Positions 26,809 to 51,353 of a DNA stretch of 64,000 bases are shown here, piece by piece. Under the pieces are notes generated by a model, which saw nothing but the letters and a program-made list of their open reading frames with translations, searched no databases and was not told the DNA's origin. The first letter of the stretch is position 1. The number at the start of each line of letters is the position of its first letter. The DNA comes from Temnopleurus reevesii (Eukaryota > Echinodermata > Echinoidea > Temnopleuroida > Temnopleuridae), in contig BQKZ01000114.1 in the NCBI GenBank assembly GCA_036244855.1, forward strand, positions 62,001 to 126,000. Direction: 5' to 3'. A program made the position numbers and the translations under genes.

Positions 26809-26889
26809 TTGGGTTGAGTGCAGCATAATGTTTTTTTTTTCTCTGTTTAAATTGAAAGAATAAGGCATTCCAGGTGGGATTTGAAGCAA
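26809..26889 (-). mobile_element. SINE fragment
   Basis: GGGTTGAGTGCAGCATAATG and GGTGGGATTTGAAGC match the middle and tRNA-related part of the SINE at 33.3-33.6 kb. Confidence 0.5.
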
Positions 26890-27343
26890 TTACTATTTGA
26901 TTGATGGATGAAACTTGGAAATAAACCACTGTGCTTTGGGGACGAAACTTTCCAGACATATTGTAATCCGGCTTTTTTTTTGGGGGGGGGGGGGGTTACC
27001 GTAGAGTTTACATCTTTTCCAAGCCCGATAATAGCCAATCCATGTGGTTTTCAGAATTTTTCATCGACTTCTGTGGTATTCCTGCTACCCAATGAAAATC
27101 TCTGAAGAATGCTAGAATACAAATTCAATGGTTTTTTACTTAAGTGTTTCTATATTTTTCAGAACATCACTGATACCAATGTTAACAGAATATTTATTTC
27201 TATAAAATCATCTTGAGTGATATTTTAATGTAATGCATTGCCATCAAAATCAAAGCCGATAAACAAAAAAAATGAGATTTGCAAGATGCGAAGTGTTGTT
27301 CCATAGCACAGTTCTTGAATGAGTTTCTCATTGGGGTTGTTCA

Positions 27344-27971: not shown

Positions 27972-28752
27972 TTCCCATCTCCCTAATTAGATAGGATATT
28001 GAAAGTTCTTATCCATGGGTGTCGAAACCTTACCCCACCATCCCAAAGAGATACATGGATGGGACATGGATTGGGTGAAATGTTTGGAGGTAGTTGGGAG
28101 GATGAGGGGAAAATAAACAGCTGTAAAAAGTAAGAGGGAAAGACGCGAGGCATAGTCTCGCCATCTCGCGGGGGTTTCTTGTGAATCCATTCAGGGGCCC
28201 AGAAGAGGACGCTTTTTCCTCTAGTCTACCCTGGAGCAACGTGAGAGTTGTTTCGTGAGGAGCGACCGGTGAATGGGGGAAGGAGATGAGTCTGCACAAG
28301 GAGTTGGAGGGAAAATGAAAAGAGAAAGGAACATTAATAAGTTGGCAATGTCAGAGAAGGAGAGATGTAAAGAGGGATAAGAAAAGAGAGGGAGAAGGGA
28401 GGAAAGGAGGCGTGGGAGAGAGGAAAAAAGAAAGGAACATTGACCAGGTCATAGGATACATTAGTTTGTACTCAGTTATTTAATTGTTTGATCCTAATTA
28501 GATTCATATTTCTATCTACATGTTTATTTTACCCTGTCTTTTTATACTTAATAGTTATATTTGTTTTTAAAATCAATCTTTAATCCTGAATCTTGAATCT
28601 TAAAATAGAGATTTGTTACTTGAGAGGAGGAAATGAATAGGTATTAAAGATAGAACAGAGATTGAAGAAGTCGATTGGAGAGAGATAAAAAGAGGAAAGA
28701 GAGGAGAAAAGAAACGGACATTGACAGACATATAAGTTGACAGTAAGAGACA

Positions 28753-29765
28753 TTAGTTGAAGGTAAAACAAGACGAGCTAAAAGTAAAAGCCATTTCACC
28801 ATCGTCATGAATAAACATGAGGAAGCGAGATGAGGTGTTTGGTGCACCATGAGACGGATGCGCTGGTCTGGAGACAGATGAGAAAAGGTGTTAATGAGGC
28901 ACAGTTGGAAGAAAAAAGGGTAGACTAACATTAATGATAGAAACAGTCTTGGGAATATTGTCAGGCTTGGAGCTTATTTGTTGTCATTGTTGGGGCAATT
29001 TTTGATAATTTTTTTCAATCTTCATTTATATAAGTAATGCCAATTTCATGTGCATATAAATCTTCGCTGGTCTGGAGACAGATGAGAAAAAGTGTACGTG
29101 AGGCACAGGCAGAAAGAAAAGGGGTAGAATAACATTAATGACAGAAACACTCTATGGGAATATTGTCAGTCTTAGAGCTTATTTGTTGTCATGGTTGAGG
29201 CCATTTTTTATTGTAATCCACAATCAGATAATTAACGGCAATAACATTTGCATAGAAATCTTTATGAACATTGTTAACACAGACGCAGAGTTAGATATTT
29301 CATAATAACCTCATACATGCAATAGCATCTTATCAATATATTTTAAATTAAGTACTTGTTTCCCAATTTTATATGAACTTCTTTTTATGCATACAGTTAT
29401 TCTCACCAATACATACTAGAATTAATGGCAATGACATTTGCATAGAAATCTTTTAATACATGGTTAGGTTCAACCTTTCACTGCATTACCCCATTTATAT
29501 TGATATGCAATTGGCATCTTACTAATTCCTTTTAATAATAGATATTAGTTGAAGGTAAAACAAGACACACTAAAAGCCATTTCACCATCGTCATGAATAA
29601 TCATGAGGAAGCGAGATGAGGTGTTTGACGCACCTTGAGACGGACTCGCTGGTCTGGAGACAGATGAGAAAAGGTGTTCGTGAGGCACAGGCAGAAGGAA
29701 AAGGGGTAGACTTTAACATTAATGACACAAAACACTATTTGGGAATATTGTCAGGTTTCACTGTG
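28753..29765. repeat. Three-copy repeat
   Basis: TTAGTTGAAGGTAAAACAAG, CATTTCACCATCGTCATGAA, CGCTGGTCTGGAGACAGATG and GGGAATATTGTCAGG occur in order at about 28755-28975 and 29545-29760. A shorter copy lies at 29065-29175. Confidence 0.8.
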
Positions 29766-30382
29766 AGCAGAGGGACAAAGACCTGGGCACAAGAAAAAAA
29801 ACCTCCATTCAAGCTTTAACAGTAGCTCAATGGACAAAAAGGAAATTTCCATCCTAAAAAGTTGCATTCTGTGAGATTTGTTGAATAAGAGTCAAATCTG
29901 GGATTTTCAGTAGTTATAATGAAACTTTAAGTGTTGATGATTGAATGAAGCTATTTACAATGTTCTGCCCATCACTATTGGAAGTTATTTGTTGTCATGG
30001 ATGAGGCCATTTTAATATTTTTAATCACCATTTCGAAAATTAATGCCAATTTTCATGTGCATTTATGTCACATTGATCATGGTTAGGTTTTGCTTCAGCC
30101 TAGTCTGTCTTTCTTTCCTTTTCTTTCCTTTTTTTTTAATTCAAAACTTTGCTTCTTGTATGAAATGTGTCTCTTCCCATTACTATCCTTCTTTTTCTCC
30201 TATCTATCTTTTTTTTATCCACATTCCTTGTCCCCCGCTCTCTGTCTCTCTCCTTTCTCAAATATTATATTTGATTTCCCTCACATTATTATTTCATTAT
30301 TTTAGCCACTTAATACCCCACTATGTGCCTCCATTCTTGCTGTCTTCCATTAATAAATTGAGGATCACCTAATCTGTATTAG

Positions 30383-31330
30383 TTGGGGGACTCTTGGGGC
30401 TGTACCGTATCTGCAAAAGGAAATATGTATGTATGATATTGCTATTTCAAAGCACCATGATGCATTAAACTTTGGAATCTGCCCATCAATCTAATGGAGG
30501 TCCAAAGAAGGAAAATTTTCATGCTTAAACTCTAGTGTTGATGAATTGTTTTTCCTCGGAAGTGTGATTCAAAATATTCTTTTGGCTACTAAGGATATAC
30601 TGTTCAAGACATCCTGATGTCTTAAAAATAACTTTAATTATTCACCTACCGATAATCCTAAAGCCCAAGATCATCCCATCTCACTAGCATTCTTAGTCCA
30701 GTTGGGTCCTCTGTGATCTGAGTTATGTTTCCTGCTATTATAAGTTGGGTCACCAGGGAATAATTTTCTTGGTATCGCATCGCAAATTGCTATGCATTTT
30801 AGCATGATTGCTACGCAAAAGTTATTTTGTTAAAGCCCCGGTCACATAGGACCCCGAAAGCGACACGATTCACCCAGACTCTTTGTTAATTCACAGTTAA
30901 CTGCCTCAGAACAACGAGTCGGGGTGAATCGTGTTGCTTCTGGGATCCTATGTGACCGGGGCTTAAGCAACTTTCTCACATAGAATTGTACAGAAAAGTG
31001 TTGAAAGTGTTTTCTAGATGTCTAAAATTTCTAATCAAATGTGAGAAGTAAAATTATTCCCTTGGTCACAGGGAATTAACTGGACTAATAATTTAGTTGA
31101 ATTGCGGCGCTGGGTTGTGACTGTGGGCCTTTAATGTTGACGGACTCTAGGGCTGTATAGTATCTCCAACAAGAAATAGATATGTAGAAATGATATTGCT
31201 TCATCTGATATCCATGCTTTATGGATACACCATGATGTATTAAACTCTAGAAGCTGCCCATCAATCCTATAGGGTCCAAAGAGGCGAAATTATCAAGCTC
31301 CAACTAAAGTGTTGATGAATTGTTTTTCTT
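30383..31330. repeat. Two diverged ~200-nt repeats flanking a MITE
   Basis: GGACTCTTGGGGCTGTA, CACCATGATGCATTAAACT and GTGTTGATGAATTGTTTTTC are found near 30390-30555 and again near 31141-31328. The family A MITE copy 3 lies between them. Confidence 0.7.
30834..30962. mobile_element. Palindromic MITE, family A copy 3, TTAA-flanked
   Basis: 129 nt between TTAA (30830-30833) and TTAA (30963-30966). Termini AGCCCCGGTCACATAGGA and TCCTATGTGACCGGGGC. The TTAA flanks suggest piggyBac-type target duplication. Confidence 0.9.
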
Positions 31331-32200
31331 GTTGTGTGATACTGATCCGTCTTCCAATGTATCCAGTTTTATATGTAAAAAAATTGGACTTGAAGATACT
31401 CCCCCCCCCCCAAAAAAAAAACCCCACACCTATATTAGAGAGTGTCCGATCGATGTCATTTTTTTAAGATAGAGAGAAATTAGTAAAAGTTATTTTCGTA
31501 CATCCTCTTTCTTGGAAACACTTCATATGAAAAAGAATACTTTGGAGGCAGAAAAAAAGGCAAGTAACTTTAAAAAATTATGTATCTGGTTAGATTTGAC
31601 ATTCCTATTAATGAATTTAGGATGATAATTTAACGTTAATGAAAAGTGGAAAAGATATGTTGGGCAATATTTTGCCTTCTAGTTAAGTTTGATATCTCAT
31701 TTCAGAAAATTGACGAAAATCCCACTAGAAGTTGGAGTTTAAGTAACTCAGTAGACGTCTGATCTTTTAAGATTTCTCACATTGTCCCACTTGAATACAT
31801 TAACCTTTTCCTGTCTGCACACCTTGACGTTGTCGCGCACACCTTAGGTAGGCGTTGTTTGAGACGTGATTGCTGAAAAACAGTTCTTATTACCGGTACC
31901 TGGATGTGAGGGGGCGTTTTGAAGGGTTTTCATAGGAAATGTAACTTCGCCAGAGGATATATGGGGTGTATCTATATATGCACCCTAAAGCTACCACTGC
32001 TGTCAGAGTTTTGATGTTAATGAAATAAATGTGTGAGTTGAACTACAGAGAAAATCTAGGAGAAAAAATACTGTGATATGCTCATAGACATTATTTTCGT
32101 AGGATGTTCAAGTGTTTATTGTAAAGCTTGTGCTCAATTCAGCTTTTGAACACTTGCATGAAAACCATTTATAGCAGTTTATAAGCACATTAACTCATTT

Positions 32201-32411
32201 CCTTCAGCAAGAAATTCATCCACAGTGTGCTGCACTCAACCCAGGTGAGGTGAATGGGTACCTGGTAGGAATGATTATTCCTTGAAACGGCAAGTGCGCT
32301 GCGCTGGTGGCTGCCGGATAAAGCCAAGGTAATAATGCTGCAATTGAAAGGCGCTTAGGGAACTCTCAGAGTTGGCAAGCGCTTTATGAAAGATGTTCAT
32401 TATTATTATTA
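32201..32411 (+). mobile_element. SINE 3' part
   Basis: CCTTCAGCAAGAAATTCATC, CAACCCAGGTGAGGTGAATG and an (ATT)n tail at 32399-32411. The tRNA-like head is missing. Confidence 0.82.
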
Positions 32412-32733
32412 GATCACTGCCTTTTATGATCTACTCAATATCCAATTTAGCCAAGTTAAGCATTTTTATTACCGATCGATGGATGAATGGGGGTGTTTTT
32501 AACTGAAGGGTTTTCAAAGGAGATGTAACTAGACAGAAGACATATGGGGGTATCTTCATGCACCCTACAGCTATCACTGCTGTCAAAGCTTTGATAAGTG
32601 AGAATATATGTCAGAGATGAACTCAAAGAAAAATTAGGATGAAGAATATATTACTCAAAGAAATGAGGTACTACAATTTTTATTTTACTAAACACTACCC
32701 CCCTCCACTTATGGTAGAGTCTATTATCAGTAC

Positions 32734-32896
32734 CTGGGGGGTGTTTCATCAAGATTTGTCGCAGGGACAATAAGTCAGCGCTGACAAATTGCTTGATTGT
32801 GATTGGATGAAAAGCACCATCGCTGACAGTTGCTATGGGAACTGTCGTAAAATGACTCCTTGTCGCTGCGACAAATCTTGCTGAAACACCCCCCTG
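32734..32896. mobile_element. ~160-nt palindromic MITE, family B
   Basis: CTGGGGGGTGTTTCATCAAG / CTTGCTGAAACACCCCCCTG inverted ends, extended by GATTTGTCGCAG and CTGCGACAAATC. The arms are about 45 nt. Confidence 0.85.
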
Positions 32897-33189
32897 GACA
32901 AACGGTTCGGTTTTTATGGGGGTTTCAAAGGATACATGATATACCCAAACAAGGAAACGGAGTCATATTGAGAATATTAATGTTTAAATTTAACAAGGAA
33001 TAATATTATTAACGGGCCCTACAATACTAAACTCATAGACAATAGCTTTGGATGGAGAAGCTTTCAAAATCCCTTTATTATTTGGTACGTTCTGTCTTTT
33101 TCGGACAAAGATTCAACTCTTTTGCATTATCTCATGGTGATGAGCCCTAGTTGTCCTCTGTTTATTTTGCTAGAGCTCTCTGTGGTAGC

Positions 33190-33214
33190 AAACCTTGTCC
33201 CCCCCCCCCCCCCC
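33190..33214. repeat. Poly-C run
   Basis: An uninterrupted run of about 15 or more C residues follows CCTTGT. Confidence 0.8.
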
Positions 33215-33315
33215 GAAATGCAATATAGATCTGAACACATGCCTAGAGTTTTAATGCTCACTCAGGGGCATAATCAGATCTAGGATATGTGTCTGGAAGG
33301 GACACTGCTTGATTA

Positions 33316-33634
33316 AGAAAAAAAAAATAATAATGATAATGATGAACGGCTTTTATATAGCGCTTATCAACTCTTCACGAGAATTCCCTAAGCGCTCTAC
33401 AATTGCAGCATTATTACCCTGGCTTTAGCCCGGCAGCCACTATGCAGCGCACTTGGCGTTTCAAGGAATAATTATTCCTACCAGGTACCCATTCACGTCA
33501 CCTGGGTTGAGTGCAGCACAATGTGGATGAATTTCTTGCTGAAGGAAATTAATGCCCTGGGTGGGACTCGAACATACATGTACGACCCTCTAGTTGAAAG
33601 GCGAGAGTCATGACCACTACACCACGGCGCCTCC
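33316..33634 (-). mobile_element. Near-complete tRNA-derived SINE
   Basis: On the minus strand the head reads GGCGCCGTGGTGTAGTGGTC (A-box-like TGGTGTAGTGG). About 45 nt later come TGTTCGAGTCCCACCC (B-box), the body shared with 15 and 32 kb, and an AAGCGCTATATAAAAGCCG end with an A/T-rich tail. The head resembles a Glu/Asp-type tRNA. A short TACATGTATG insertion disturbs the T-arm. Confidence 0.85.
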
Positions 33635-33769
33635 ACATTGGTTGCAAAAAAAAGTTGCAACCTTCTGCTCGGTAAAAAAATGGAGAGCTGCTGCAAAATT
33701 GCTGCACCAATATTGCTGCCCCCCTCAACCCCATTCAAATTGATCTTTGTCTACTTGTAGATGTTTTGC

Positions 33770-35860
33770 AGGCTGGCTGTCATAACACAATCCCAGACAA
33801 TAAGTATAATTAATCCCACCTCTACCTCACCATGAAAATTGATTTTCATTTCACCCTAGAGTTGATTCGAAAGATAATCAGCAGTAAAGCTTTCATCATA
33901 ATATTAGATGCTGTATTTAACCTTTGGTATTACTATTTATTTGTAAAATAAATAGAAAATGTTGTCTCTTTTTGCAACAGCCTGTAAGATTATTATTTAG
34001 TTATAGTATATATGACCAATTTATTGGTGAGTTTGATATAAGTTTCAAATTCTCACTGATTATCACACGTACAGAACATAGGTTGAAAAGGGCTGGAACC
34101 TTTTTTTGCCCTCCCAATCCCAACTGGACTTGCCTTTGCTTACCTGCCAAATGTCATAGAACAACTCCAGACAATAACTTAATTTTTTTTGCTTCCACCT
34201 TATCAAGGAAATTGATTTTTCATTTTGCCCTGCGGCTTTATATTTGAATGAGATGCAGCAGTAGAAATCTCATATTAGATGCCAGTTGCACAAACCTTTG
34301 GTATTATCCAGAAACTATTGCTCCTTTTTGCAATGGCATGCAAGATTATATACATGTAGTGAGAGCATATGTATAGCATACTTGACCATATTATTGGCAA
34401 GTCTCATTTCATTTTCAAATTCTTGCAGATTGAACCTTATAATATCACACCGTGTGAGCGTAAGTCGGAAAGGGCTGCAACCTCCTTGACAATCCCCATG
34501 CTAACTGGATGTGCCTTTCCTTATTTATATACCTGTCACTTGTCATAGAACAACTCCAGACAATAACTATAATTAAACCTGCTTCTACCTTATTGAGGAA
34601 ATTGATTTTCATTTTGCCCTAAAGCAGAATCGAATGAGGTACAGCAGTAGAAATCCCATCATAATATTGGATTCCTATGCATGAAGCTTTTGTATTAGTA
34701 TTCATTTGTATCCAGAAAATGTTGCTCCTTTTAACAATGGCCTGTAAGATTATGTTGTGAGAGTATATTTGACCAAATTATTGGTAAATTAGATTTAAGT
34801 CTCAAATTCTTACTGATTGAAACTTATAGTATCACACCTACAGAGCGTAGGTTGGAAAGGGCTGCAACCTCTTTGACAATCCCCATGCTAACTGGATCTG
34901 CCTTTGCTTATTTATATACCTGCCAAAGATTTTAATTTCGCCCTACAGCCTATTAGAATGAGATGAAACAGAAGAAATTAGATGTTATTATTCACATGGA
35001 TCTTTTCTACAATGGCCAACATGATTGAGAGCCTATTAAGATGGATGCCTATCCAAATCATTTGCAAATTCAATATCAATTCTAATGCTTGCTGATTGAA
35101 ACTTTAAATATCGTTTATAGAGCATAGGTCAGAAAGGGCTGCAACCTTTTTTTGCCCTCCCAATCCCAACTGGACTTGCCTTTGCTTACCTTCCATATGT
35201 CATAGAACAACTCCAGACAATAAGTATAATTATTTTTGCTTCCACCTTATCAAGGAAATTGATTTTCATTTTGCCCTAAAGCAGATTTGAATGGGATTCA
35301 GCAGAAGAAATCTCATAATATTAGATTCCTATGCATAAAGCTTTTCTATTTCTATTCATTTGTATCCAAAGAATTTTACAATCGCCTGCAAGATTACCTC
35401 AATACCTTTTTTGTGTCCAGGATATTTTTTAGCCTCTATTAGTATTGTCTTCATTTACTTTTCTATTTCAATTAAAGCGCCATGAGCACCGAAAGGTGGA
35501 CCTGTGCACTATACAAGTAGCTACTATTATTATTATTATTATTATTATGTAGTGAGAGCGTATTAAGATTTTACTTGACCATATTATTGGCAAGTTTGAT
35601 TTCAGTTTCAAATTCTTGCTGATTTTAACTTAAAATACCATATTTATAGAGCATATGTTGGAAAGGGCTGCAACCTCCCTGACCCCCCATGTTAACGAGA
35701 CCCTCATTTGTTTTCCTCCCAAATGTCATTGAACAACTCCAAACAATAACTTTAATTATTTTGCTTCCACCTTATCAAGGTTATTTATTTTTCATTTTGC
35801 CCTATAGCTCGTTTGAATGAGATGCAGGAATAGAAATCTCACTGTAATAAAAGATAAAAC
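33770..35860. repeat. ~2.1 kb tandem array, unit ~375 nt, about six copies
   Basis: Each unit holds GTCATAGAACAACTCCAGAC, TTATCAAGGAAATTGATTTT, CATTTTGCCCTA, CAATGGCCTG.AAGATTA and GGAAAGGGCTGCAACCT. Unit starts are near 33780, 34150, 34538, 35200 and 35728, with a truncated copy near 34921. A SINE-type tail with (ATT)n at 35482-35548 interrupts the array. Confidence 0.88.
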
Positions 35861-35929
35861 AGACACAACACTTTCGTAATATCATTTATCTTGTGATACT
35901 GACCATGCATCCACAAGCCCATCTATATT

Positions 35930-37000
35930 CATAACCAGAGAGTAAATATTCAATCCTTTCCTTGTAATGAACCTTTCCATCGTGCTTCCTCCATTTTTAA
36001 GTAGACAATGCATTAAGCATTCATTTGTAATGATGTCCTGCCTCACTAATGAATATTCATTAAACGTTGTCCCTTACACGGTATGGGTCAACGTCAAAGA
36101 GTTGTTTCATAGGGATGAAAATGAATTCGGATCAACCCTGTAGCGCGGTTCATTTCTGAAGATGCTGTCATCTGTAGTGGTGTAGCCCCACGTTTATGAA
36201 TATTCATGACGTCAAAAAGTTGTTTCATTGGGATTTAAATGACTTTTATGAACTCGGATCAACCCCATATTCCGCTTTATTTCAGGTGATGCTTTCATCT
36301 GTAATGGTTATAAGCTTATGAATATATTCAGAATGATTATTCCCTAAATCGGTCAACATCGAGAGTTGTTTTATGTTGAGTGAATTTTGATTAACCTAAT
36401 TTCCCGGTTTATTTCTGATGACGCTTTCACCTGTAATGGTGTCTCGCCAAGCATATGAATATTCTGTTTTATTATTCCCTAAATGAGCTACCATGAAGGA
36501 GTTCTTTCACCGAGATGTTAATTACTTGTTTGAACTGGAATCAACCCTGCATCCCAGTTCAGTTTTTATAAGAATGCATTTGAGTTGGAGTAAAGAAAAT
36601 GTAACAGAATAGTGTAACATATGGATGATATTTACTAATCTTCCTGAATTTTGCCCCTAATTACAATAAAACACAGTCACAAACAATTTGGAAGTGACTG
36701 ACCAGTTATTTGTAAAAAAAAAATCCCTCTAAAATTCATAACTAGCGGGCAAATTATATACACTCTTATGATGAACCCCTCCATCGTATTCCATTTTTTA
36801 TTAGACTATGTATTAAGCATTCATTTGTAATGATGCCCTTTCGAGTTAATGAATATTCATGAAGTGATTATACCTTTACAGATTAACAGCAAAGAGTTCT
36901 TTCATTGAGATGCTAATAACTTTTATGAACTGGGGTTAACCCCAAATCCCAATGTTTTACTAATGATGCCTTTGAGTAGGGGTGAAGAAAAGGTCATATT
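35930..37000. repeat. Tandem array with ~130-150-nt units in a larger repeat
   Basis: Repeated order of TGAATATTCAT, GTCAA..AGAGTTGTTTCAT, GATCAACCC and CATCTGTAATGGT at about 36045, 36195, 36310, 36450 and 36840. The preceding block ATTAAGCATTCATTTGTAAT recurs at 36011 and 36811, so part of the array is itself duplicated. Confidence 0.78.
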
Positions 37001-37799
37001 GATATAATCGGTGATGTTTCTGAATTATTTAGCTCAAATATTGAATAAATGATTAGGTCATAAAATAAGGGTCCAATAAGCATGTCGAGGTAAGGCAATT
37101 TCTAATGATCTATTAGTGGCAAGATGCATAATTTCACATTTTGGATTTGCAACCATTTGAGCGTATCCCATTTCTGAAATCCAAGTCATCAAATTCCGTT
37201 TAATTTTAGCAAGAATTTTATTGGAAAAAATAATTGATTGACGATCTGCAAGCATTCTTCGAGCTTCAAGTCTGGAATTTGACATGTTTCATTCTTCTAT
37301 TCACACAAAGAAAAGCAATATTGATCTTTCTAAAAAAAAATCTTCAAAAAGCATTATTTTCGAGCCTTATCTTTCCTGTTAAAAATCTTTAAATTGGCAA
37401 AATGTAGAGAGAACACATAAAAATCAGCCATGATAATCAATGAATTGGGTAAGTTACAAACAGTATCTCGATGGCTCAATGGTGGTGAGAGGAGAAATTG
37501 ATAGAAAAGAAAGATTTGTTTAATGCATTAATTACTAGAAGAAGCAAAGGATGAGAAATTGAGATGAATATTACCAGCAATGCTGATCTGTGAAGAGTAA
37601 ATTTTGCAACCATCATGGAAATGAAGTAGGGGAAGAGTGAGCGAACAAGGGAAGAAGAGAGAGGGAGTGGGAATGGGGAAAGACAGGAAGATATGCAGTA
37701 ATTGATTCCAGGTTTCAGTTTGCTAGTTTATAGAATGAATATTGCAACCATGACATAGATGAAGAGAAGAGATAGAGGAAGAAAGAAAAGGGATTGAAA

Positions 37800-37877
37800 G
37801 AGAAAATCTGTTTTGAACGCAGGTACATTCTAGTTGCTACTGTGTTTGTACGAGTGTTGCCAAAGAGTGGGATAGAA

Positions 37878-37910
<33 letters not shown>

Positions 37911-38935
37911 TAGGAGGATGTGCATCAATTCTAGGCATGGGTATTTCATTCCCTCATGAATAAATATCACAGCCATTACAGAAATGAAGAAAGGAGAGAA
38001 ATAACAACCACCATAGAAATGAAGAAGAGAAAGACAATTTGAGAAAGAGAGGGGAAAAAAAGAAAATGAGAGAGAGAAGATCTGCATTGATGCTGGCTGA
38101 TAAAATGATAATCATAAACCGAACCACCATAGAAATGAAGAAGATAAAGACAAATTTGTGAAAAGGAGAAAGAAAGAAAAGAGAGTGAGAGAGAGAAAAG
38201 ATGTGGATTGGTAACTTGTACACTTTGATAAAAATCACAGCCGGAACATTTATAGAAATAAATAAGAGAAAGTCAAAGTGAGAAAGAGAAAGAAAGAAAA
38301 GAGAGAGAGAAAGAGAAAGATATGTATTGATCACAGCTACACTTTGATAAACATCACAACCGCCACAGAAAATAGAGAGAAAGAGAAAGAAAGAAAAGGG
38401 ATTGAGAGAGAGAGAGAGAGAAAGAGAAAGATATGTATTGATTGCATGTACACTTTGATAAACATCACAGCCACCACGGAAAAAGAGAGAGAAAGACAAA
38501 TTGAGAAAGAGAGAGAAAGAAAGAGAAATTGAGAGAGAGAGAGAGAGAGAAAGAGAAATTGAGAGAGAGAAGATGTGCATTGGTAGCAGATACATTTTTA
38601 TTAACATCACAACCCAAACCACCATAGAAATGAGAAAGAACAGAAAGAAAAAGGTTTGAGAGTGAGAAAAAGAGGTGCGATTATATCATGTACACTTTGA
38701 TAAATATCACAACCACCGCAAAATAAGAGAGAGAAAGAGAAATTGAGAAAGCGAAAGAAAGAAAAGGGATTCAGAGAGAGAGAGAGAGAGAAAGATGGGT
38801 ATTGATAACATATACACTTTGAAAAAAAAACATCACAGCGACCACAAAAGAAGAGAGGGAAAGAGAAAATGAGAAAGAGAGAGAAAAAAAAGTAGAGATT
38901 GAGAGGGAGATGAAGATGTGTATTGATCACAGGTA
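37800..38935. repeat. G/A-rich minisatellite, ~110-120-nt unit, about nine copies
   Basis: Units of GAGAGAGAAAGATRTGTATTGA, then ACACTTTGATAAACATCACA, CCACCACAGAAA and further GAGAAAGA runs. Open frames on the minus strand (Ser-Leu repeats) follow from the repeat and are not genes. Confidence 0.88.
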
Positions 38936-39340
38936 TAGGTATTTCATCTTATAATATAGTTGCCACGGTATTCGTATGAACTTTGCCACCTTGCATTGAC
39001 GTAGCTCCCCAGCCATTATTAGTCCTGACGACTGGGGCCCAGCGAAAGGAAACGGCAACCACGACGCAGACTGAAAATAACCCAGGCTCCCACTGTAATT
39101 TTCCGCCAAGATATACCCGAACAGTAGTCAATAAATTTTGCCGTGCTGTCCATTTTCAATGTATGCATTCCCTTTGCTGTGTGGTCGACTAGAGATGTTT
39201 TGGTGCGGTGGGGACATTTGGAATGGCGTATGAAAGATAATGGGACGATGTTATTGAGCAGGGGTTGCTGGTTGAATTTTTAATATGTCGCCAGATTGAG
39301 ACAGAGGCCATTCGCACACATCAAGGAGAGGTAACTAGTG
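38936..39340. other. GC-richer single-copy stretch, no gene assigned
   Basis: A locally GC-rich interval (38960-39130) has short overlapping open frames on both strands but no family similarity or splice logic that I recognise. Confidence 0.35.
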
Positions 39341-39659
39341 TTTAATCTAGAATCCATCTCGTAATGTTTGCCGTCTGCGTCTGAATGTTGTCTTTTGAGA
39401 GGGAGTGCGTGTGGTGGTGGCGTGGTGATGCAATGGCGTAAAGTGTGGGTGTTGTGGTTTTGTGTAGAAGTGGATTGCTTGGTGAATAGTCAGTATTTCA
39501 GATATACATGTGCATGTAGGTTTGTTGTCTTGATCAATGTTCATGTGATGCAATGTATTATATGATGTCGAAAAATGAGGTGAAAGATATAGTAAAGAAT
39601 GAGAAAGAGAGACAGACAGAGAAGGTGTATGTACTTGTTTGTGTGGGGGTAAGAGGTAG

Positions 39660-39895
39660 AAATACATTGTGACAGGGTTGTGTGTGTTAATTGTGTGTGT
39701 GTGTGTGTATCAAGTGTGTGTGTATTGTGTGTGTGTTTGTGAGCGGATAAGAACTAGGAATACATTGTGAAAGGAGAGGTAATGTGTATGCAGTGAATGA
39801 CAAGTGATTATAGGAATGTGTGTTGGGTTTTTGTGTGTATGTATGTGAAAGTTAAAGATATAGGAGAGGGAGAGAGAGAGAGAGAGAGAGAGAGA
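39660..39895. repeat. (TG)n and (GA)n microsatellites
   Basis: GTGTGTGT runs at about 39678-39745 and an uninterrupted (GA)n at about 39868-39893. Confidence 0.85.
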
Positions 39896-41639
39896 TGAAG
39901 AGATAAGTGAGATTTGTTATGACAGATAAACAACAGAAAAAGAGGAGGTCTGGGAAAAATGAAACATGAAGAGGAGGAACGCTCCAACTACAAATGTCAT
40001 GTACGCCAATCAAAAAGGGCATAAACTTCTTCCTATCGACAACTCTACAAATTTTAAATAAAGTACGGGAGAGAAAGATCAAGAGACAAAAGAAAACGGG
40101 AGAAAGGAGAAGGGGAGAGAGTAGAATCAAAAATGAAAAGCCATAGAGAGAGAGTTAGAAAAAAATAATGCCTCAAAATGTCAAGTAATCCTCCAATAAA
40201 CTAAATTTCCATCAAAATATTTATGACCATAAACCATAAAACTATATATAACCGAGTAAAAAAATGAATCTTTTCTGGGTCCAATTCTTCCTCCTCTTCA
40301 ATCTCACTGCATGCATTAATAATTCCCTACTCGCAGAAGAATGATGATGATTATGGCCTTGGTTAGAGAAATAGTCCATTAATATATCACCGTAACTCAC
40401 AGTAACCCCCGCCATCTCTCCACCAGAGACATATTAAGGGAGCCATTGTGTATAGTTATTAGCATAATGCCCAGTGCAGTCTACCCACATTATATATAGC
40501 AAGAGCGAGCTGAGGCCAATGTTGGGTTCTTCTGTATACATACAGTCGAAAAACATAACCACATTCTTGCGCAACCAATGCGAGAATTCCAGACTTTTTT
40601 TGCAAGGTCGCCATTTTGTTTTGATGTCTGGGATTTTTTCCAAGTCGAGATTTTGGTAAGACTTTTCCTTCTCTCTCATAAGCCAAGGAATATATTGATT
40701 TGTATGAGAATGCAGACATTGTTTGTGTGTGAGTGGGGAGTGGATTGCGTGGGTATGTACCTGTTGAGTGTATGGAATACACATATGCTTTAGGGTTTTT
40801 GCTTGAATGTAAGAGTAGTTAATTAATTATTATATATCAAATGTAGAAGATAAAAGTTGATATTGTATGCATTTTCTGTGGTATATGATTTGTTATAAAT
40901 CTATATGATAAAAATCTATATTGTTCATATTTTTCTGTGATGTGATAATTCAATGTTTATTGTCACTTGAATTTGTTTTTTTGTTATTATTGGAGAGAAG
41001 GCATTCCCAGCTGTATAATTAGCGTGTTAATTTAATTAATGGGTTTGTATTGGATTTAATTGGAATTGAAAGCTGATTGATACATTCTTAATTAATCTTA
41101 TTAACTATACTTTAAATGAATATTCAAGACAATGTAGTTTCTTGAATATTTGTTAATGAATTATCGAAATGGAAAAAAAGACAAAATTGTGATAATGCTA
41201 TATCAGTATCTGCAAAATATGAATATCATTAAGAGTTTGACCAAATATGTAAATTTAGTAATAATGTACATCAATGAGGAGATTTTCATTTTAGATTCCA
41301 TATTTTGTAGCATGTTCTTTCCAATTGCTTTGATGTCAACTTTCACGTCTAAATTTAATATCAAAAGTAGCTGAGAGATACTGATCTATATATTCTGTAG
41401 AGATCATTGATGCAATTTTCACTCAAAGGTGAGTGAATCTTTATAGAAGAGTTAGATTTGAGAGAGTTTGAATACATTTAAATCTATTTATTGTGATCTC
41501 CTCGATCACTGGTAATATTTAAGTGATCACGAAGGTCACAAAATAAGAGTGAAAATATTCCAACTCACTCAAATTTCACTCGCTTTAAAAATCTCACTTT
41601 CGGGTGAACATTTTCAATATTTTTTACAGAGTCCCTAAA

Positions 41640-41725
41640 GCTCAAACTAATGCAATCTTATTTTACTTTAACTAACGCTTTTCTCACTCATTCTCATTTG
41701 CAATTCCAATTGTCATCACGATCAG
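41640..41725 (+). promoter_or_regulatory. Putative 3' splice region of the microexon
   Basis: AACTAAC (41670-41676), a C/T-rich stretch 41678-41698, a TGC at 41699-41701 and the terminal ATCAG. In vertebrates, SRRM4/nSR100-dependent microexons have UGC motifs close upstream of the acceptor; the match here is suggestive only. Confidence 0.4.
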
Positions 41726-41731
41726 AGAGAG
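41726..41731 (+). CDS. APBB2: Candidate 6-nt neural-type microexon (Arg-Glu) in PTB1
   Basis: Seen: ATCAG|AGAGAG|GTAAAA inside the 33.7 kb intron, with AACTAAC (a near-consensus branch point) about 50 nt upstream and a C/T-rich stretch CTTTTCTCACTCATTCTC between them. A TGC triplet lies 25 nt upstream. The intron splits Arg in phase 2, and insertion turns [11 protein letters not shown] into [13 protein letters not shown], keeping the frame. Known: vertebrate APBB1 and APBB2 have an alternatively spliced 6-nt exon adding Arg-Glu at this site, neuron-enriched and linked to SRRM4/nSR100 and to KAT5 binding. Inferred: this is the sea urchin counterpart. A 6-nt exon can arise by chance, but I found no other AG|(A/G)GA(A/G)AG|GT in this intron. 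Confidence 0.55.
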
Positions 41732-42489
41732 GTAAAATACCATAACATAGATGTTGTCAATTTAGTGAAAATCTGTGACCGTTGTTTACTAGTATCATCC
41801 TATTAGTTGTTGGTTAATTGGTGCTTATATAAATTATTGCTGGAGTATTTGTGCCACTTTTATTTTTTTTTTATTTGTCATTCATTTTAGTTTAGATATT
41901 TATTTGTCATCTCCTTGTAAAATGTTGTTGTGGAATTATTCATAATTATAATATTATAATATTTCTTTGATTATTCATTGTTTAAATTTTTGCTTTTGTT
42001 TTCTCTTTGTATCTTTTAGTGTGTGTTGTAGATACTTTCAGTGAATCAATGTGTTGTGATTTGTATGGTGCATTCTCAAATAGTTTGTTCTATCTTGTTC
42101 GTATTTCATCAAAAGTGTGTTAGGCACCCCTTTCTATAAATAGTTGCATGACTATATTATTGTTCATCAAAATGCACATAAAAGTTTATGAAACCTGAAT
42201 ATTGACCTTAGTGATATAAAAAGGGATATATAGTAAAATTCATTCATATGCTTGAAGCATACTTGACTATGCACTTTTTGCAAGTTTAATTTAATTACAT
42301 TTTTTAATTGATAATTAATAGATATAATGTATTTAAATGGACATGGTTGAATATCTATACAATTCAAACCTTTATTGAATCACAATTCATAATTTGCTAT
42401 TATTGTGGAAATAAATGAAATGAAATGAAAATAATATAGATGAAAGGCTGTATGTATAGTACAATTTTCTATTTTGCTACTTCATTACT

Positions 42490-43515
42490 TCATGCGGTTT
42501 GTGCAGCAGTACATGTTACATTGGAATGAGCAAAATTGAAATGAGCTACAAGCAACCGGACTGGTATTTAATATCTTGGAATTCACTCTCATAATTGAGG
42601 CGCCTGAAAGGGCTTGAGATATTGTAGCTAATCTTATGAAGCGGCTCTTGGATGCACAATCTAGAACATAAACCTGATAAATTTGCATTTTATTAGCAAA
42701 TCATACATATATGATAGTAGGAAACGGAAGTGGTTTTTTATTCCATGTTTCACTTACTTTCTGTAACCAACAAGGTATTAATCTTTATTTTTTCTCTATT
42801 TCATAAAATGTTGCTACTTTTATTTAATCTACCAACTTTCTGCCTTGTGGTTGTGTATAGATACATGTTACACTGGGATAATTTAAATGAGCTAAAGCAC
42901 CTGGACTGGTGTCACATCTTAATATTCACTCTCATAATCAAGGCACCTGCAAGTGTTTGAGAAATTGTAACCATTCTCCTGATGCGGGCGCATAATCTAG
43001 AAGACTTGCGTGAACCTTGAGAATATTGTTATATTCCTTACATTTTGTATGCAAAATTACTTTTTTAAATGTAGGAAATAGAAATCATCTGTTCTTTGAT
43101 TCCATGGTTCTCTCAGCAACAAATATTTTCAGATAAATTGATGTCAAAATTTTGATTAAGCCATTTGGCAAATAGCTATTCTGTAGATGTGAAAATGTTA
43201 AGTTCAGTGCAATTGTACATCTCAATAGATACAGGCTTTGATTGAAAATTGATTTCTATTCCCTTTCAGAAACAAGAAATAATTTAAGATAAATTTATGC
43301 CAAAATGTTGATTCAGCCATTTGCCAAATAGCTATCTTCTATAGATATGAACATGTTTAGTTCACTGCATTTTTACATATTATTAAACACAACCTTTTCT
43401 GGAATTAATTTCTATTCTTAAAAAAAAAACAAGTTTTAATTTAAGATGAATTAATGTCAAAACATTGATTTAGCCATTTACTAAATAGCTATCTTTAGTA
43501 GATGTGAAGTAACAC
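42490..43515. repeat. Two adjacent tandem arrays downstream of the microexon
   Basis: A two-copy repeat (ACATGTTACA.TGG, ATTCACTCTCATAATYRAGG, GAGATATTGTA) lies at about 42510-42720 and 42860-43080. A three-copy unit of about 160 nt (TTTAAGATAAATT.ATG, GATTYAGCCATTT and AAATAGCTATCT) lies at about 43120, 43275 and 43438. Confidence 0.72.
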
Positions 43516-43589
43516 AGTGCAGACACAACTTGGAATAAACCATTCATACTTATGCCTGATATGATTCAATCCTCTGAGTTACAAGAAAA

Positions 43590-43995
43590 TCATTCTTTTT
43601 TCCTCTTCTTCTTCCTTTCTTTCTTATGCTTCCTGTTATCGATATTTCTATTGTATTTCCTTTTTTTCTTCTCATTTTTCTACTTTTTCTGGGATTTTTC
43701 TTCCTTGTTCTCCTTCTCTTCCTTCTCGTCCTTTTAATATTTTTTAATCCTCAACATCCTCTTCTTTATGTTTTCATTTTTTCTTCTCATGTCCTTCCCC
43801 CTGTGCCTTATGATTTTTTATTTCTTTTTCTTATTCTTCTTTTTCTTTTTATTCTTCTTTTTCTTCTTCTTCTTCCTCTTCTTCTTATTCTGCTTCTTTT
43901 TCTTTTCTTATGTTTCTTCTTCTGCTTCTTTGATTTATTATTTTGCTTCTTGCTCTTCTCCTTCTTCTTATTTCTCTCCCATTTGCTCTTCTCTA

Positions 43996-44028
<33 letters not shown>

Positions 44029-44045
44029 TTTGTCTTCTCTATGTT
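43590..44045. repeat. C/T-rich tract with (CTT)n
   Basis: About 450 nt of TTCTTCTT, TTTTCTTTTT and CTCTCTCT on the plus strand. Open frames are pure Phe/Leu/Ser low complexity. Confidence 0.88.
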
Positions 44046-44119
44046 CCCCCCATTCTCACCTTTCTTAATTATCAGAAGTCAGAATGTGCCATTGACTAAT
44101 CAAACTTCAATTACATTCA

Positions 44120-45500
44120 TTACTTTTTCAACACTCCTGCAACGATATCAGCCGACCTGCACAAGGTTATTAATCAAATTCTAATTAACCCTGTATTCCA
44201 ATGCATGTACACACAGCAGACATGTAAATGTATATTTCACATTGAATCTACAAGGCTTTAGACATTGCAGGAATCGGGAGCCAAATTGACTGAAGAATTA
44301 TCTTGCATTACAATGATATATAAAGCAGATATGCATGCATTAATCAAATATATGGCATGCACTGAGGAGTTCTTGTTGAAATTATGGATTGTGAGGTGAC
44401 TGGCATAGCACTATTTTCTGAGGGGCACATCCCCGAGGAAAATAGTCACTACGCCGGTCACCGAAGAATGCATAATTTCATACAGTACTTCAAAAAATGT
44501 GCATGGTTTATTTTATTTATATCCTACTTGTAATCTGTCGATGAAATGAATTCCTCCAAATCATCATCTACGAGATTAAATCTCGGTTTATCGTTGTTGA
44601 TGTCTCCACTGGGTGCCGCCATTTTTGTTTATATTTCAACGACCTTTGATCTTGATCGCGGTATCGATAGCTGAATACCAAGTTATCGAAAGATGACGTC
44701 AGAATATTTTTCATAACGAAAACTATTCCGAGGATGACATTACGCCATATCCAATTTATTTCATGGTGAAAATATTTTTAATCACATGACTACTCATTAA
44801 CCAATGACAATAGATACAATCTTATGAGTAGGATATAACAGAAAATATTTTTCAACACTCCTTTCACTACATGTATATCAGCTAACCTGCACAAGGTTAT
44901 TGATCAAATTCTAATTAACCCTCTACTGCTGTTTTCCAATGCATGTGCACATAGCAGACATGTATATTACACAGAAATACAAGAACTATCTTGCATTAAA
45001 AGGATATATATGCAAAGCAAAAGCAGATTTGCATATATCTAAAATATTTGTCAACACTCCTGCCACGATATAAGCCCACCTGCACAAGGTTATTAATGAA
45101 ACTCTAATTAACCTTATACTGCTATATTCCAATGCATGTACGCATAGCAGACATGTATATTACACAGACAATTTACCAGGCTTTAGACATTGCAGGCTTA
45201 AACTTAGGGAGACAAATTGACTGAAGAATTATCTCGCATTACAGTGATCTACAGAGCAGATATGCATATATAGGACAATATTTGTCAACACTCCTGCTAC
45301 AATAACAGCCAACCTGCACAAGGTTATTAATCAAAATCTAATTAACTTGATACTGTTGTATTCCAATACATGTGCACATAGCAAATGTGTATATTATTAC
45401 ACAGAAAATTTACAAGGCTTTAGACATTGCAGGGTTACGGAGCTAAATTGACTGAAGAATTATCTCGCATTACAGTGAGTTACAAAGCAGATATTCATAT
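44120..45500. repeat. Tandem array, ~200-230-nt units, split by an inserted element
   Basis: Units start CAACACTCCTG and contain CCTGCACAAGGTTATTAAT, TTCCAATGCATGT.CACA, AGGCTTTAGACATTGCAGG and GACTGAAGAATTATCT. Copies start near 44129, 44856, 45052 and 45287. About 450 nt between the first and second are foreign (44376-44838). Confidence 0.85.
44376..44838. mobile_element. Composite foldback insertion in the array
   Basis: A palindrome of about 100 nt (44376-44483; GAAATTATGGATTGTGAGGT against ATGCATAATTTC with core TGAGGGGC..CCCCGAGG) is followed by a segment with inverted ends TATATCCTACTTGTAAT (44518) and ATGAGTAGGATATAA (44838). It contains TTGATCTTGATCGCGGTATC and TGACGTCA. Confidence 0.6.
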
Positions 45501-45699
45501 TGGAAACTGTGAGAGGCTTATCATATCATGCATGGTTATGGAAATTAATTGACAGAATGAAAAGAATTTGTATAAAACCTGTAAGACTGTTAGATACATT
45601 TTTAAACAATAATATGTCAGTGCATCAATATTCCAATGACACATCCTTTACCCTTCTTTGTATTAGATTGTCAAAATTGTCTTTATGCTAACATGTTGA

Positions 45700-48600
45700 A
45701 GCAATAGGATTAAATCAACTACTAGTATTAATATTTAATTTTGCTTATTTTCTTATTTCGTAAGTCCAAATCAAATTATAGTATATTGAGCTGTAGGTTT
45801 ATCATTTTTACAAATATTCTAATCCCCTGTATGTCAATTCTGTACTCAATTCTGTAATTGGCTTGGGCTTTTTGACAAGAACCACTTGATTTTAGCAGGA
45901 ACCAGTTTACACAAATTCAGGAAATTACCAGCTATGTTTTGTTTCTTATTCTATGTTTTGTCTCTTATCGAATATTCTTTATCTAGGTATCATTGCAGCG
46001 TAGCATGACACTTCATTCATTCAAATATAGATACTGGTTCTTGTAATCAACATATGAATATTCACAAATTTTAGGATTTTTCTTTTAATGTTGAACACTA
46101 TAAGTGATTAAAGAGGAAATCATATATTGCCAGAATGATGATAAATTTTTGATCGCAACATGTTTTTAAAGTTTTTTCTTAGTGGGTTAAGATTTCCTTA
46201 TTTTGAACATTCTGCAAGTCCATTTTAGGCAACGTGAATTACTCCACATATCTTAATTGAAGTTCTGAACAAATTTTTTTGTTCAGTCTTAAAGATATGA
46301 AAATTTGACTTGGTGGCATAAAGTGTTAATATATTCCATGAAACATGTAGTGAGCAAATGAATATTTCTCAGTTATCATATCACACCTGGGAATATGTAG
46401 ATTGACCTAAACTTTCCAATCTGTGCCCTTTTGCTAAAGTCACAGCACGCTTACTATGAGTAATACAAAATTGTCCAAAAAAGACGATGTTAGAATCTCT
46501 GAGGAATATATCGGATAAAAACTTAAAAACAAAAACTTCAAGTTAACCGCTGAGTAAGAACTGTAATAGTACACCACTTGTTTGAGAGTGCATTGCATTA
46601 TTTGAAAAGTGTTGCCAATTTACATGCAGATATTTAATGCATGATGACACGTCATGTCTACGGCGGCGCCAGACTGTCTGGGCTCTTGTTTACGTACCTT
46701 TTTTTCCCTCTCGGTGCTACGATATATCCCGCACGGAGTCTTCTCACGTGGATTAGAGGAATACTCCAAAGTTTCCGTGCTCAGTCAATCATCAAGGGGA
46801 TATAAGTTGGCAGGCTGTTTGCAGATGACATTTGTATCTTTTAGTCCTTATTGAAGATGAGATGAAAGAAATGCAGACCTTTTTCTAGTTAAGGAATAAC
46901 CAAAGCTCTTGCACTTGTCTCCAGCTTCCTGAAGACATTATGGTGCCACTGGCAGAAGAAATCAGTCACTTGCAGCCCCCCTTTCATTTTAAGACCCATT
47001 TAGCTAAATTTTTAGGGCGGGATTAGTTGGCATGAAGACTGAAACAAATGATGGCTCTTGATAGGCCTTTGGGGTATGTTATCAATCAGGGCATTTATTT
47101 AAAGATGACTATGGCATTGAATTTGTATTGGTTGTAAACGAGGTGGGGAGACTGCCGACGCCAGATTGAATGAGTGGGGCTGAGGTATATAAGGACAGAT
47201 CGTAAATGATAGGTAAATTATGGCCCATATAATCCAGTGATATATTTGAATTGAGTCTGCACTTTTAGAAGTATTCCTAACAGTATTTATTTTCTGTTGA
47301 GACCAATTGAGCACTCAATAACTCCTCCTTTTTTGCTCCAGCAAAATACATTCTTTCTTTAATAATGACAGTAGAATATACGGTCGTTCCAAGAACCCCT
47401 TTTTATCAAATGTTTTTGAAAACAGCTATCACATGTTTACAAAATGTTTACCTAAAAGTGTGGAAACATCCATTTGAATTATTCATTTCCACTATTTACA
47501 TGTCTTGGTTTCCAATATATCCCTTTATTAATTCATACATGACATGTCCATCAATTTTATCTGAACATTAACCATGTCCAATAGAAAACAAACAATTTAG
47601 CACACCTTCTGTATAATTTTTTTGAAACATCAAGTATTAAAATGGGTGAGCAATTTTATTGTATTTGTAAGCCAAGATTCATGAGTACCCATGTTCAATC
47701 CAGTCAAGCTGTAAAGGAATGTCATGTCATTTGAAATGTAAGAAACTGTTGAACTTGAGTATGCCATCACTTTTGACCACTTGTCAGCTTTCACTATCTA
47801 ATCTTAATTTTTTGTTTCCTGAAGTTTTTTTCCATTTTCTTTCATTTTCCTTTATGATTCTTCTTCTTAATCTCAAAATAATGTTTTAAACAACAATCTT
47901 CTCTTACAGTCTTGTTTTTCCCTCATAGAATATCTCTCATATTTCTTTCTCAAAGAAGAAGAATGGACAATTTTCCATGTACTCATCTCAGTTGGCCTTA
48001 GAGTCTCTTAGTCCTATTCCCTTTCTGTTTATTTCTACTCCAGTCATTTTGCTTCATTTGCTCTTTCTTTCTTTCTCCATTCTCCTTTTTCTTTGACTTT
48101 TAATAAAATTTGAGAACCTGTCAAAATGTACTACAGATAGAAGCAATCATTTTTTCAGAGATGGGCAATTCAAGAGATCTTCACCAATATCCAGTCGAGG
48201 CACGGATACATTTCAGCGCTCCACTCCAAATCCCATCAGATCGTGTGTCACGGGTAGAGGGCTCCCCCAACCCCAGATGGTTGCGATGCAGCGCATGGAC
48301 GGAACCCAACCTTCAAAGAGGGTTAGCGATGGCATGAAAACATGGAAATATCAAAATACGCTTGTTGTGGGCCAGCCTGTTACTCATTAGATAATGAGCA
48401 CTTAACCGCGATCGGCCTCTACGTGCTGCCGACCTCATGAATACAGCCCCAGACATGGCGGCGCCGGAATACGATTAGCGGTCGTGGGAAATACCACATT
48501 TTGCTCATTTCTCTGGGAATTCCTGCCCACTTGAAACTAGTGATACTCAACACTCCCGCTTATTCCCTGTACGCTCCGTCTTTTATGTTTTTAAACAAAA

Positions 48601-49110
48601 AAGCACTTCAGTGCAACGCTCTTGCAATCTTTGTAGAGACCAATGTACAGTCACATGACCCACTTGAAAAGCCAATGACTTTTAAACACCTTCAATATAT
48701 TCTTCACTACCTTATATTACCCTTGTTTCATCTTATAACACCTTTTTTCCTTTCATTTAGACTTTTCTCCGACTTGCATCTCAAAGTTGAACCACTCTTG
48801 GGAGATTATATAGTGCATTCTATTTACAGATTTGACCCCCCCCCCCCACTTCCCCCAGGGGAGATGCTGAAATATCAAATGCACTCTTCCTTTGCAAATG
48901 CAAAAATGGGGAAAGTGGCATGCAATGAATAAAGTTGCCAATTTGATGAGTCACATCTAGGAATAGTCTATCGGAATGCAGAAAATGTCACTGGTTGTCA
49001 CTAAAGGAGAACTTTGCGGTTTCCCCTGAAAAATATCCACCAGATTTGCATATTGGAAAGCTGCCATGAGCACAGTATTGCTGCGTAGCCTTTTAGACAG
49101 TCATTTTTCT
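45700..49110. other. Long intron segment, no exon seen
   Basis: AT-rich with two GC-richer islets (46651-46750 and about 48190-48500). Short open frames there show no family signal. A poly-C run lies at 48836-48848. Confidence 0.5.
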
Positions 49111-49125
49111 CATACCCGACGTAAG

Positions 49126-49400
49126 GAAAGGCAGAAGGGCATTTAGTGACAACCAGTAAATCCTGTTCAGCAAGACTACAATCGTCATATTTGATAATGA
49201 TATTCATATAATTTCAAATTTGCATAATTTTCTGGATACTTGTATCTTTTGCGAGTGTGAACCACCAAAAGCAGAAGAGTATTTGATACCAACTAGTCAA
49301 TCCTGTTCAGTAAGATTACAAACCTCATATTTGATGATGATATTAATATATTCAGTGTTTGAATTTGCATAAATTTTGTGGATACTTGTTTCCTTTGTGA
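49126..49400. repeat. Two-copy tandem repeat (~140 nt)
   Basis: GGCAGAAG.GCATTTAGTGACAA..AGTAAATCCTGTTCAG followed by CATATTTGAT.ATGATATT and TTTGCATAA recurs at about 49267 in diverged form. CACTGGTTGTCACTAAA at 48990 is inverted relative to TTTAGTGACAACCAGT at 49141. Confidence 0.7.
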
Positions 49401-49419
49401 GTGGAAATCACCAAGGTAA

Positions 49420-51060
49420 TATCGAGGCAATGTTATGTGATTATCGTGCACCCATCTTCATCATGATATTTCCTTTGATTCTTTGTGAATATTCTTTTAT
49501 TATGCTCTATTATGCATGCAGTAAATCTTTTTGCTGATGTATATTTTTCATGTCAATGTATACCATTTGAGCCACTTCATTTAGTTTAAGCTTTTGCCCC
49601 ATTGTATCTTTAAATTTCCTTTGATTTTCATTTGATTTTATTTTCATTAAATCTTTATTTCTTTATTTCTGTGTATTCTATATTACTTTTTATACATGTT
49701 TTTTTTTTATATATTGTATGAGCATATTTGTTAAATTTGTTGTTAAAAAAAATATTTGTTAAATTTTTTGTTCCTCAAATTTTTATTTCTATTTCATGTT
49801 TTTAAGAAACATATATATTCATTATGTTATTTTCTTTCATATTCACACTTTTTTTGACAATAAATATGTTAGTTTTCCATGATTTCATATGACACCTTTT
49901 ATTTATTCCTTCATCATTTCATGTGCTAAATATACCATTTCAATGTACCTATTCAGTATGCAACATGCCATTTTCCCCTGCAGCGATAATTTCCTTGCGA
50001 TTTAGATTTAATTATGTTGTGTATCTCCAATCATATGAATATGTTTCAATGCCTTTGAAGATGGTTCATTTTGTTATAAAATCCTCTTAAAGTTCTTTCT
50101 TCATTTCATAACAAAGTAATACCTCCCTAGGCATAATATTTGAGAAGAAGTTATAAGAAGATTATCTGAATTATACTATAGAAGCCATTTTATTTTGGCT
50201 TTAGTCTCGAGATAATCTATTTTGAAATTATTCATAATTGCATTTTGGTTGCCATTTCATAACAAAAGAACCTTGAGCAGCTCATCAAAATGGATAATCC
50301 AGGCTCTTGTAAAGATCTAATATTTTATGGCGATTGGGAAATCAAACAGAATATACCATTGTTATTTCATTTATTAATGATTGCTGAATGTTAAAAGCAA
50401 TGTCCAAATATCCAGACTTTCAAAATTCAGACAAAATGCACAATTTATGTTGCTCATAGATGCAAAAAGAGAAAAAGAGACAAGCAATGTAATTAAAAAA
50501 GTTGCCAATTTTATTAGTGGCACTGCAGACAATATGTTTGTGAAAGCTAAGGAAAAGTCAGTGTTGAAATACAGTGGATTTTAAAGGGTATGAGGTCAAA
50601 AAATATATCACTTAAGTACAAAAAATCAACCAAAAATAACTTCATCTGAAATGATTAGGATTACTAGTGATGGATTTAGAAGCAAAATAATAAACGTCTT
50701 GTTCACAATCGATGCACAGGACATTAGAGTGAGTTAGGCCCCTTGTGTTCTTTTCGTAATACGTGTGTGTTCTTTGTGTGCACATCCCTATTATACATGT
50801 ACATGTGAGCTACTCTTTGTACTAGTATAAAATATAATGAGAACCTTTTTATTTTTTTTAGATTCAATGTTTCAAAAACCCTTTTTAATTTCATGTGATG
50901 TTTAGGGGAACTGGTTTCACTACGGACTAGCAGATTATCATTTTCGGCCTTAAATACGTGCGCTATATAAATTGCATCTATTATTATTATTATTGGAGAA
51001 AAGGACAATATCTTCTTTAATTAATAGTTCATTACATACATTTATGCATGTACAGAGCAA
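49420..51060. other. AT-rich intron end, no exon seen
   Basis: T-rich DNA. A GCGCTATATAAATTGCATC end with (ATT)n at 50950-50996 is a SINE-tail remnant. Confidence 0.5.
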
Positions 51061-51099
51061 TTCTTTATTGCAATAATTTTAACTTTTCTATATTTTCAG

Positions 51100-51353
51100 G
51101 GACTTTGCTTATGTGGCACGGGACAAGGTGACCAAGCGATACAAGTGCCACGTTTTCCGATGCGACATCCCGGCTAAGGCCATCGCCAACGCGCTGCATG
51201 AGATCTGCGCCAAGGTGATGAGCGAGCGTCAAAAGGGCAACACAATCTCCATGGTAACCCAAGGTCAGATGATCAGACAGCAGCAGCAACAACAATTAAT
51301 GCAAATGAAGAGTATTTCATTGGACAGCAGCAAGGATGCCACACATACGCCAT
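51100..51353 (+). CDS. APBB2: APBB exon d: end of PTB1 and polyQ linker
   Basis: This 254-nt exon (phase 2 to 1) has acceptor TATATTTTCAG and donor CCAT|GTAAGT. It opens with [20 protein letters not shown], the last strands of PTB1, followed by the C-terminal helix [20 protein letters not shown] that closes the peptide-binding groove in this family. The second part is a linker with [14 protein letters not shown] and a Ser/Asp/Thr-rich end. The polyQ run is coded CAGx3 CAAx3. GC content is clearly higher than in the surrounding intron. Two partial copies of its 3' end follow within 340 bp. Confidence 0.96.

Follow-up and report, generated by a model that had tools for sequence, protein, structure and literature searches.

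Does the large PTB1 intron of the Fe65/APBB gene of the sea urchin Temnopleurus reevesii hold the 6-nt microexon known from vertebrates, and how old would such an exon be? Li et al. (PMC4317164) describe a 6-nt microexon in APBB1, APBB2 and APBB3 that is alternatively spliced in mammals, chicken and fishes. Its inclusion is reported to boost the interaction of Fe65 with Kat5/Tip60 and, less, with APP (PMC8911335). In zebrafish, microexons chosen for srrm3/4 regulation and conservation were deleted, and that study lists the apbb1 microexon as one for which a molecular function has been reported (PMC12626424). Here we follow up a sequence-only reading that had proposed AGAGAG at 41726-41731 as the urchin counterpart.

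The intron and its flanking PTB1 exons

The window, that is the whole stretch of 64,000 nt analysed here, is part of contig C114 of a 558-Mb assembly. Exons of a Fe65/APBB gene are spread over ~15.4 to 63.4 kb of it. Three features define the locus:

17293..17420, + strand: upstream constitutive exon, PTB1 (GKDMYMV...IRVWGVGRDNG plus AG of Arg), with the strong donor GTGAGA
17421..51099, + strand: phase-2 intron of 33,679 nt that contains the candidate microexon
51100..51353, + strand: downstream constitutive exon, continuation of PTB1 (G of Arg plus DFAYVARDK...)

The junctions read GACAATGGCAG/GTGAGA at 17420 and TTTTCAG/GGACTTT at 51100. These exon ends and their translation bear out the intron as originally read, in phase 2 and between the PTB1 codons for Gly-Arg and Asp-Phe. 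Translated in frame, the skipped form gives ..GRDNGRDFAYV.. and the included form ..GRDNGRERDFAYV... Inclusion of AGAGAG thus turns GRDF into GRERDF with the frame kept (GR-ER-DF), which is the in-phase Arg-Glu addition that had been predicted. Over the exon at 51100 the encoded protein matches Lytechinus variegatus P0122 without a difference; for the remaining exon pieces, identity to P0122 is 82-93% (tblastn; some counts take in intron letters). Several residues differ between the Fe65 protein of the window and those of L. variegatus, L. pictus and Strongylocentrotus purpuratus.

By tblastn, six Fe65 exons of the window are matched in the adjoining intron by copies that are partial or decayed, some of the matches being weak (E up to 0.01):

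16649-16747: partial or decayed Fe65 exon copy
17699-17800 and 17887-17925: partial or decayed Fe65 exon copy
51463-51546 and 51632-51685: partial or decayed Fe65 exon copy
55028-55114 and 55163-55237: partial or decayed Fe65 exon copy
55983-56048: partial or decayed Fe65 exon copy
59658-59711 and 59788-59877: partial or decayed Fe65 exon copy

The copies that were read have a stop or a lost donor, and many local tandem repeats lie alongside. Downstream of the PTB1 exon there is also a tandem array (51786-53061) with a 299-nt unit, 4.4 copies and 79% matches.

The candidate microexon and its splicing signals

The following features surround the candidate:

41641..41723, + strand: AG exclusion zone of 83 nt upstream of the acceptor
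41647..41651, + strand: second branch-point-like sequence, CTAAT
41672..41676, + strand: branch-point-like CTAAC, 52 nt before the acceptor
41677..41698, + strand: pyrimidine-rich tract with TCTC motifs (TTTTCTCACTCATTCTC)
41699..41701, + strand: UGC motif (TGC), 25 nt before the acceptor AG
41724..41725, + strand: 3' splice site AG
41726..41731, + strand: putative 6-nt microexon AGAGAG, adding Arg-Glu (from the letters, the frame and RE at the junction of relatives' proteins)
41732..41737, + strand: weak 5' splice site GTAAAA

The letters ATCAG/AGAGAG/GTAAAA are exactly where they had been placed, and the CTAAC, the pyrimidine-rich sequence and the UGC near the acceptor were all found again. 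Fly exons that depend on the eMIC domain are described as having long AG exclusion zones, UGC near the 3' splice site, UCUC-rich tracts and CUAAY branch sites, together with weak donors of their own and strong upstream donors (PMC8797185). The acceptor of the candidate has this eMIC-type layout, as AG-free zone, UGC, UCUC and CUAAY are all present, and its own donor GTAAAA is weak whereas that of the upstream exon, GTGAGA, is strong. In these respects it resembles exons dependent on eMIC proteins (Srrm3/4, Srrm234). However, CTAAY, TGC and an AG-free zone of 62 nt also occur at the acceptor of the constitutive exon at 17293. Such a layout is thus not confined to microexons, and we regard it as a fit, not as proof.

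The RBFOX-like motif GCATG is absent from the + strand of 41501-42100. No good second match to 41600-41850, as local duplication would produce, turned up in the window (blastn; the best other match was 21 nt, E 0.013). Searching with the Pfam model SRRM_C (eMIC, PF15230) gave 0 matches in this genome and likewise 0/14 in the control genomes, which makes this search uninformative on an eMIC protein.

Chance occurrence of the hexamer

AGAGAG could be an unspliced chance hexamer in a GA-rich intron, with the real RE microexon lost or lying outside the assembled intron. The + strand of the intron holds 90 AG-N6-GT sites, one of which codes for RE; the other strand has no RE-coding site. Markov models of order 1, 2 and 3 predict 0.12, 0.37 and 0.73 RE-coding sites per intron, respectively, and GA-rich arrays are indeed present at 37.9-39.9 kb, both in favour of chance. 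For AGAGAGAGGT itself the expected counts in the intron are 0.025, 0.11 and 0.37 for the same orders. An expectation of 0.03 had been given for this sequence, which agrees with the simplest model (0.025) but not with the higher orders. We therefore rejected rarity of the hexamer as proof, the Markov expectation reaching 0.73. The hexamer alone is weak evidence and not clearly beyond chance.

The absence of any other AG-(A/G)GA(A/G)AG-GT in the intron was confirmed, also when CG ends, GC donors and AC acceptors were allowed. Two other routes to RE were examined as well. Other splice types (CG end, GC donor, AC acceptor) yielded 0 sites on either strand of the intron, and the flanking exons cannot supply RE by a shift of their donor or acceptor, because AGAGAG does not stand at the junction in either flank.

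Adding the upstream architecture to the hexamer makes the site rare. On both strands of the window there are 340 AG-N6-GT sites. Four of them follow an AG-free zone of 80 nt or more, and for three the zone spans 60 nt or more and includes CTAAY. All three of the latter also have TGC within 40 nt. Against the 9-position donor consensus, the candidate scores 6 matches and the other two score 2 and 3. In the intron, 24 of the 1,998 AG-to-AG gaps are 81 nt or longer. In the whole 558-Mb assembly (both strands, by a pattern search that passes over simple repeats) CTAAYN{35,60}CAGAGAGAGGTAA matched twice, at the candidate and on contig C4189, where several AGs fall within the intervening stretch; the reversed control matched once. 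The thresholds and the pattern were set after the site had been seen, and these figures describe rather than test its rarity.

The candidate lies outside the GA-rich arrays, and no other site in the window codes for RE and also has an AG-free zone of 83 nt, CTAAC and a donor matching at 6 of 9 positions. In addition, ER stands at this junction in two further urchins, and an RE exon is therefore expected in this intron. Against this evidence, a chance hexamer appears very improbable.

Arg-Glu at the junction in other deuterostomes

The protein searches covered annotated eukaryotes and list the best 120 matches each, with cluster members hidden behind representatives. Two of the lists, one of them the protostome-like one described below, came from queries that carried RE, and another from a query that did not. 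With RE in the query, ER was found at the junction in 115/120 among the matches listed, and those named were vertebrates. The RE-less query added 118 new entries among the matches listed: 114 without ER, one different and three with ER. These three are P0122 (L. variegatus isoform X2), P0123 (S. purpuratus isoform X1) and P0127, and each has the insertion predicted for the microexon, Arg-Glu at the exact junction. The L. variegatus and S. purpuratus proteins (NCBI) are predicted and known from protein records alone, and read GRERDF. P0123 also has ~35 extra residues within the end of PTB2 (..EAACK / LRYQK..) that are absent from P0122.

Both urchin records have "isoform X" names and look like automated predictions. 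Protein homology could have placed the exon, in which case the echinoderm ER would be an artefact copied from vertebrate protein alignments, with the sea-cucumber-like contig behind P0127 chimeric or contaminated. However, P0127, an "lgn" record, shares 90.8% identity with Apostichopus P0126 across 882 columns, and its 3,488-nt contig coding 898 aa looks like an assembled transcript, being far too short for a genomic gene. The same insertion also recurs in many insect records. We consider an artefact of this kind extremely unlikely.

Representative sequences without ER at the junction are those of Lytechinus pictus (P0002) and Apostichopus (P0126), of starfish (P0124/P0125), a brittle star (P0128) and crinoids (P0129/P0130), of hemichordates (P0003/P0131/P0132) and of amphioxus (P0094, P0133-P0136); for the starfish, brittle star, crinoids and hemichordates, representatives are weak evidence of absence. 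Among the representatives listed, the echinoderm proteins with and without ER come from different species. As a vertebrate control, both forms were seen within Sciurus carolinensis and within Marmota marmota (with ER, P0026 and P0012; without, P0175 and P0234, respectively), and the protein lists do separate isoforms.

One amphioxus record, P0139 (Branchiostoma lanceolatum), reads GRDNGR-DALSICLFVAPYLC-RERDFAYV. From the protein letters we infer that an upstream AG was taken as the start of the small exon in this model, so that a pyrimidine tract with TGC-AG at its end is translated ahead of the RE codons. The stretch around GRDNGRDALSICLFVAPYLCRERDF is likely a mis-annotated amphioxus Fe65 microexon, and an amphioxus gene model thus seems to carry the insertion.

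The human Fe65 PTB1 structure 3d8d has the same insertion too. Like the vertebrate APBB1/APBB2/APBB3 microexon, the one proposed here has 6 nt, encodes Arg-Glu/Glu-Arg and falls at the PTB1 junction between GR and DF; unlike the exon described from mammals, birds and fishes (PMC4317164), it is found in an echinoderm and in a 33.7-kb intron. With identical residues at an identical junction in P0122, P0123, P0127 and 3d8d, the proposed correspondence to the vertebrate Fe65 microexon is well supported. As judged from sequence comparison, AGAGAG is very probably a genuine Fe65/APBB exon, orthologous to the vertebrate APBB1/2/3 microexon and presumably included alternatively. The exon is known in vertebrates; what is new here is its phylogenetic reach, into echinoderms. 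In the literature searched we found no report of an APBB microexon outside vertebrates, nor any discussion of the two predicted urchin proteins, although the tables of Torres-Mendez et al. (2019) may list it.

The insertion in insects and nematodes

For protostomes we used a made-up, protostome-like junction with RE as the query. Among its 119 new entries in the matches listed, 68 had ER, 49 had none and 2 were variants; the ranking favours ER, so this share is uninformative. The named carriers are insects, namely bees, ants, wasps, sawflies, beetles, mosquitoes and other flies, as well as bugs, thrips, a damselfly and butterflies. The named entries without ER are nematodes. Two nematodes vary at the junction, Onchocerca flexuosa with GRDRDF (P0242) and Romanomermis with GSRDF (P0277), and the other named nematodes listed read GRDF. 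P0289 lacks ER, yet other parts of it look insect-like: RKHMCHVFRC...KKIMIERS is shared with P0266 and P0287, which do carry ER. This hints at an ER-less form in arthropods too.

The Arg-Glu insertion thus probably predates deuterostomes. That insects, echinoderms and vertebrates all have it at this junction suggests, unless it was gained twice, that the insertion was present in the bilaterian ancestor, the exon-level encoding in insects aside. The sequence-only reading would, if the exon were real, put the switch at the base of deuterostomes; this date was probably too cautious, as insect Fe65 proteins share the insertion. Tentatively, and with somewhat less than even confidence, we propose that the ancestor of bilaterians already had the switch as an alternatively spliced microexon, which vertebrates, amphioxus, echinoderms and insects have retained and which the nematodes seen lack. 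The fly study names only spg, EndoB, unc-13 and unc-104, not Fe65, for neuronal eMIC exons in equivalent positions in fly and mouse (PMC8797185).

Structure and proposed mechanism

In the AlphaFold2 model of P0122 the insertion falls within residues 602-604, between strands 591-597 and 605-611. Mean pLDDT is 55.5 overall (mostly disordered stretches), and the blocks 591-600 and 601-610 reach 77 and 80, respectively. The best PDB match of the model is human Fe65 PTB1 3d8d with a TM of 0.90 over the target (Foldseek). As the insertion lies between two strands, the two charged residues would extend the turn, and such an extension of the PTB1 turn can, on this model, alter binding with the fold unbroken.

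By default the urchin microexon is most likely skipped, with inclusion in neurons. Acting at the UGC/UCUC region, an activator with an eMIC domain (Srrm234-type) would assist SF1/U2AF and U2 in using the distal branch site CTAAC. In this way splicing would include an exon that has the weak donor GTAAAA and is too short to be defined in the ordinary manner. Inclusion would put Arg-Glu into the PTB1 turn between the strands IRVWGVG and DFAYVARD, where the fold would stay intact, the surface charge would change and partner binding might be tuned (in mammals, KAT5/Tip60 and, less, APP). The letters, the frame, the single occurrence in the intron, the conservation among proteins and the place in a turn of the model are observed; use of the exon in this species, its confinement to neurons, the need for eMIC and the effect on binding are inferred.

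The exon could also be real but non-neural, that is broad or constitutive in echinoderms, with neural restriction added in vertebrates; this would affect the regulation and not the exon itself. All named insect proteins listed carry RE, and the insertion could be constitutive there, though the query favoured RE. On the other hand, echinoderm proteins with and without ER both occur, albeit in different species, and the layout of the candidate fits that of the fly eMIC exons, whose programme is described as neuronal (PMC8797185). Broad or constitutive inclusion is in our view unlikely, and neural inclusion of the urchin microexon is likely by analogy.

Significance

Taken together, the candidate would extend a functionally studied two-residue neural switch of vertebrates to echinoderms, and its cis-signals are open to test in an embryo suited to perturbation. 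A bilaterian origin, if true, would place the Fe65 Arg-Glu switch among the oldest neural microexons, contrary to the published picture of few shared outside vertebrates. With such an unusually old exon one could test directly if the earliest eMIC-regulated exons survived across phyla.
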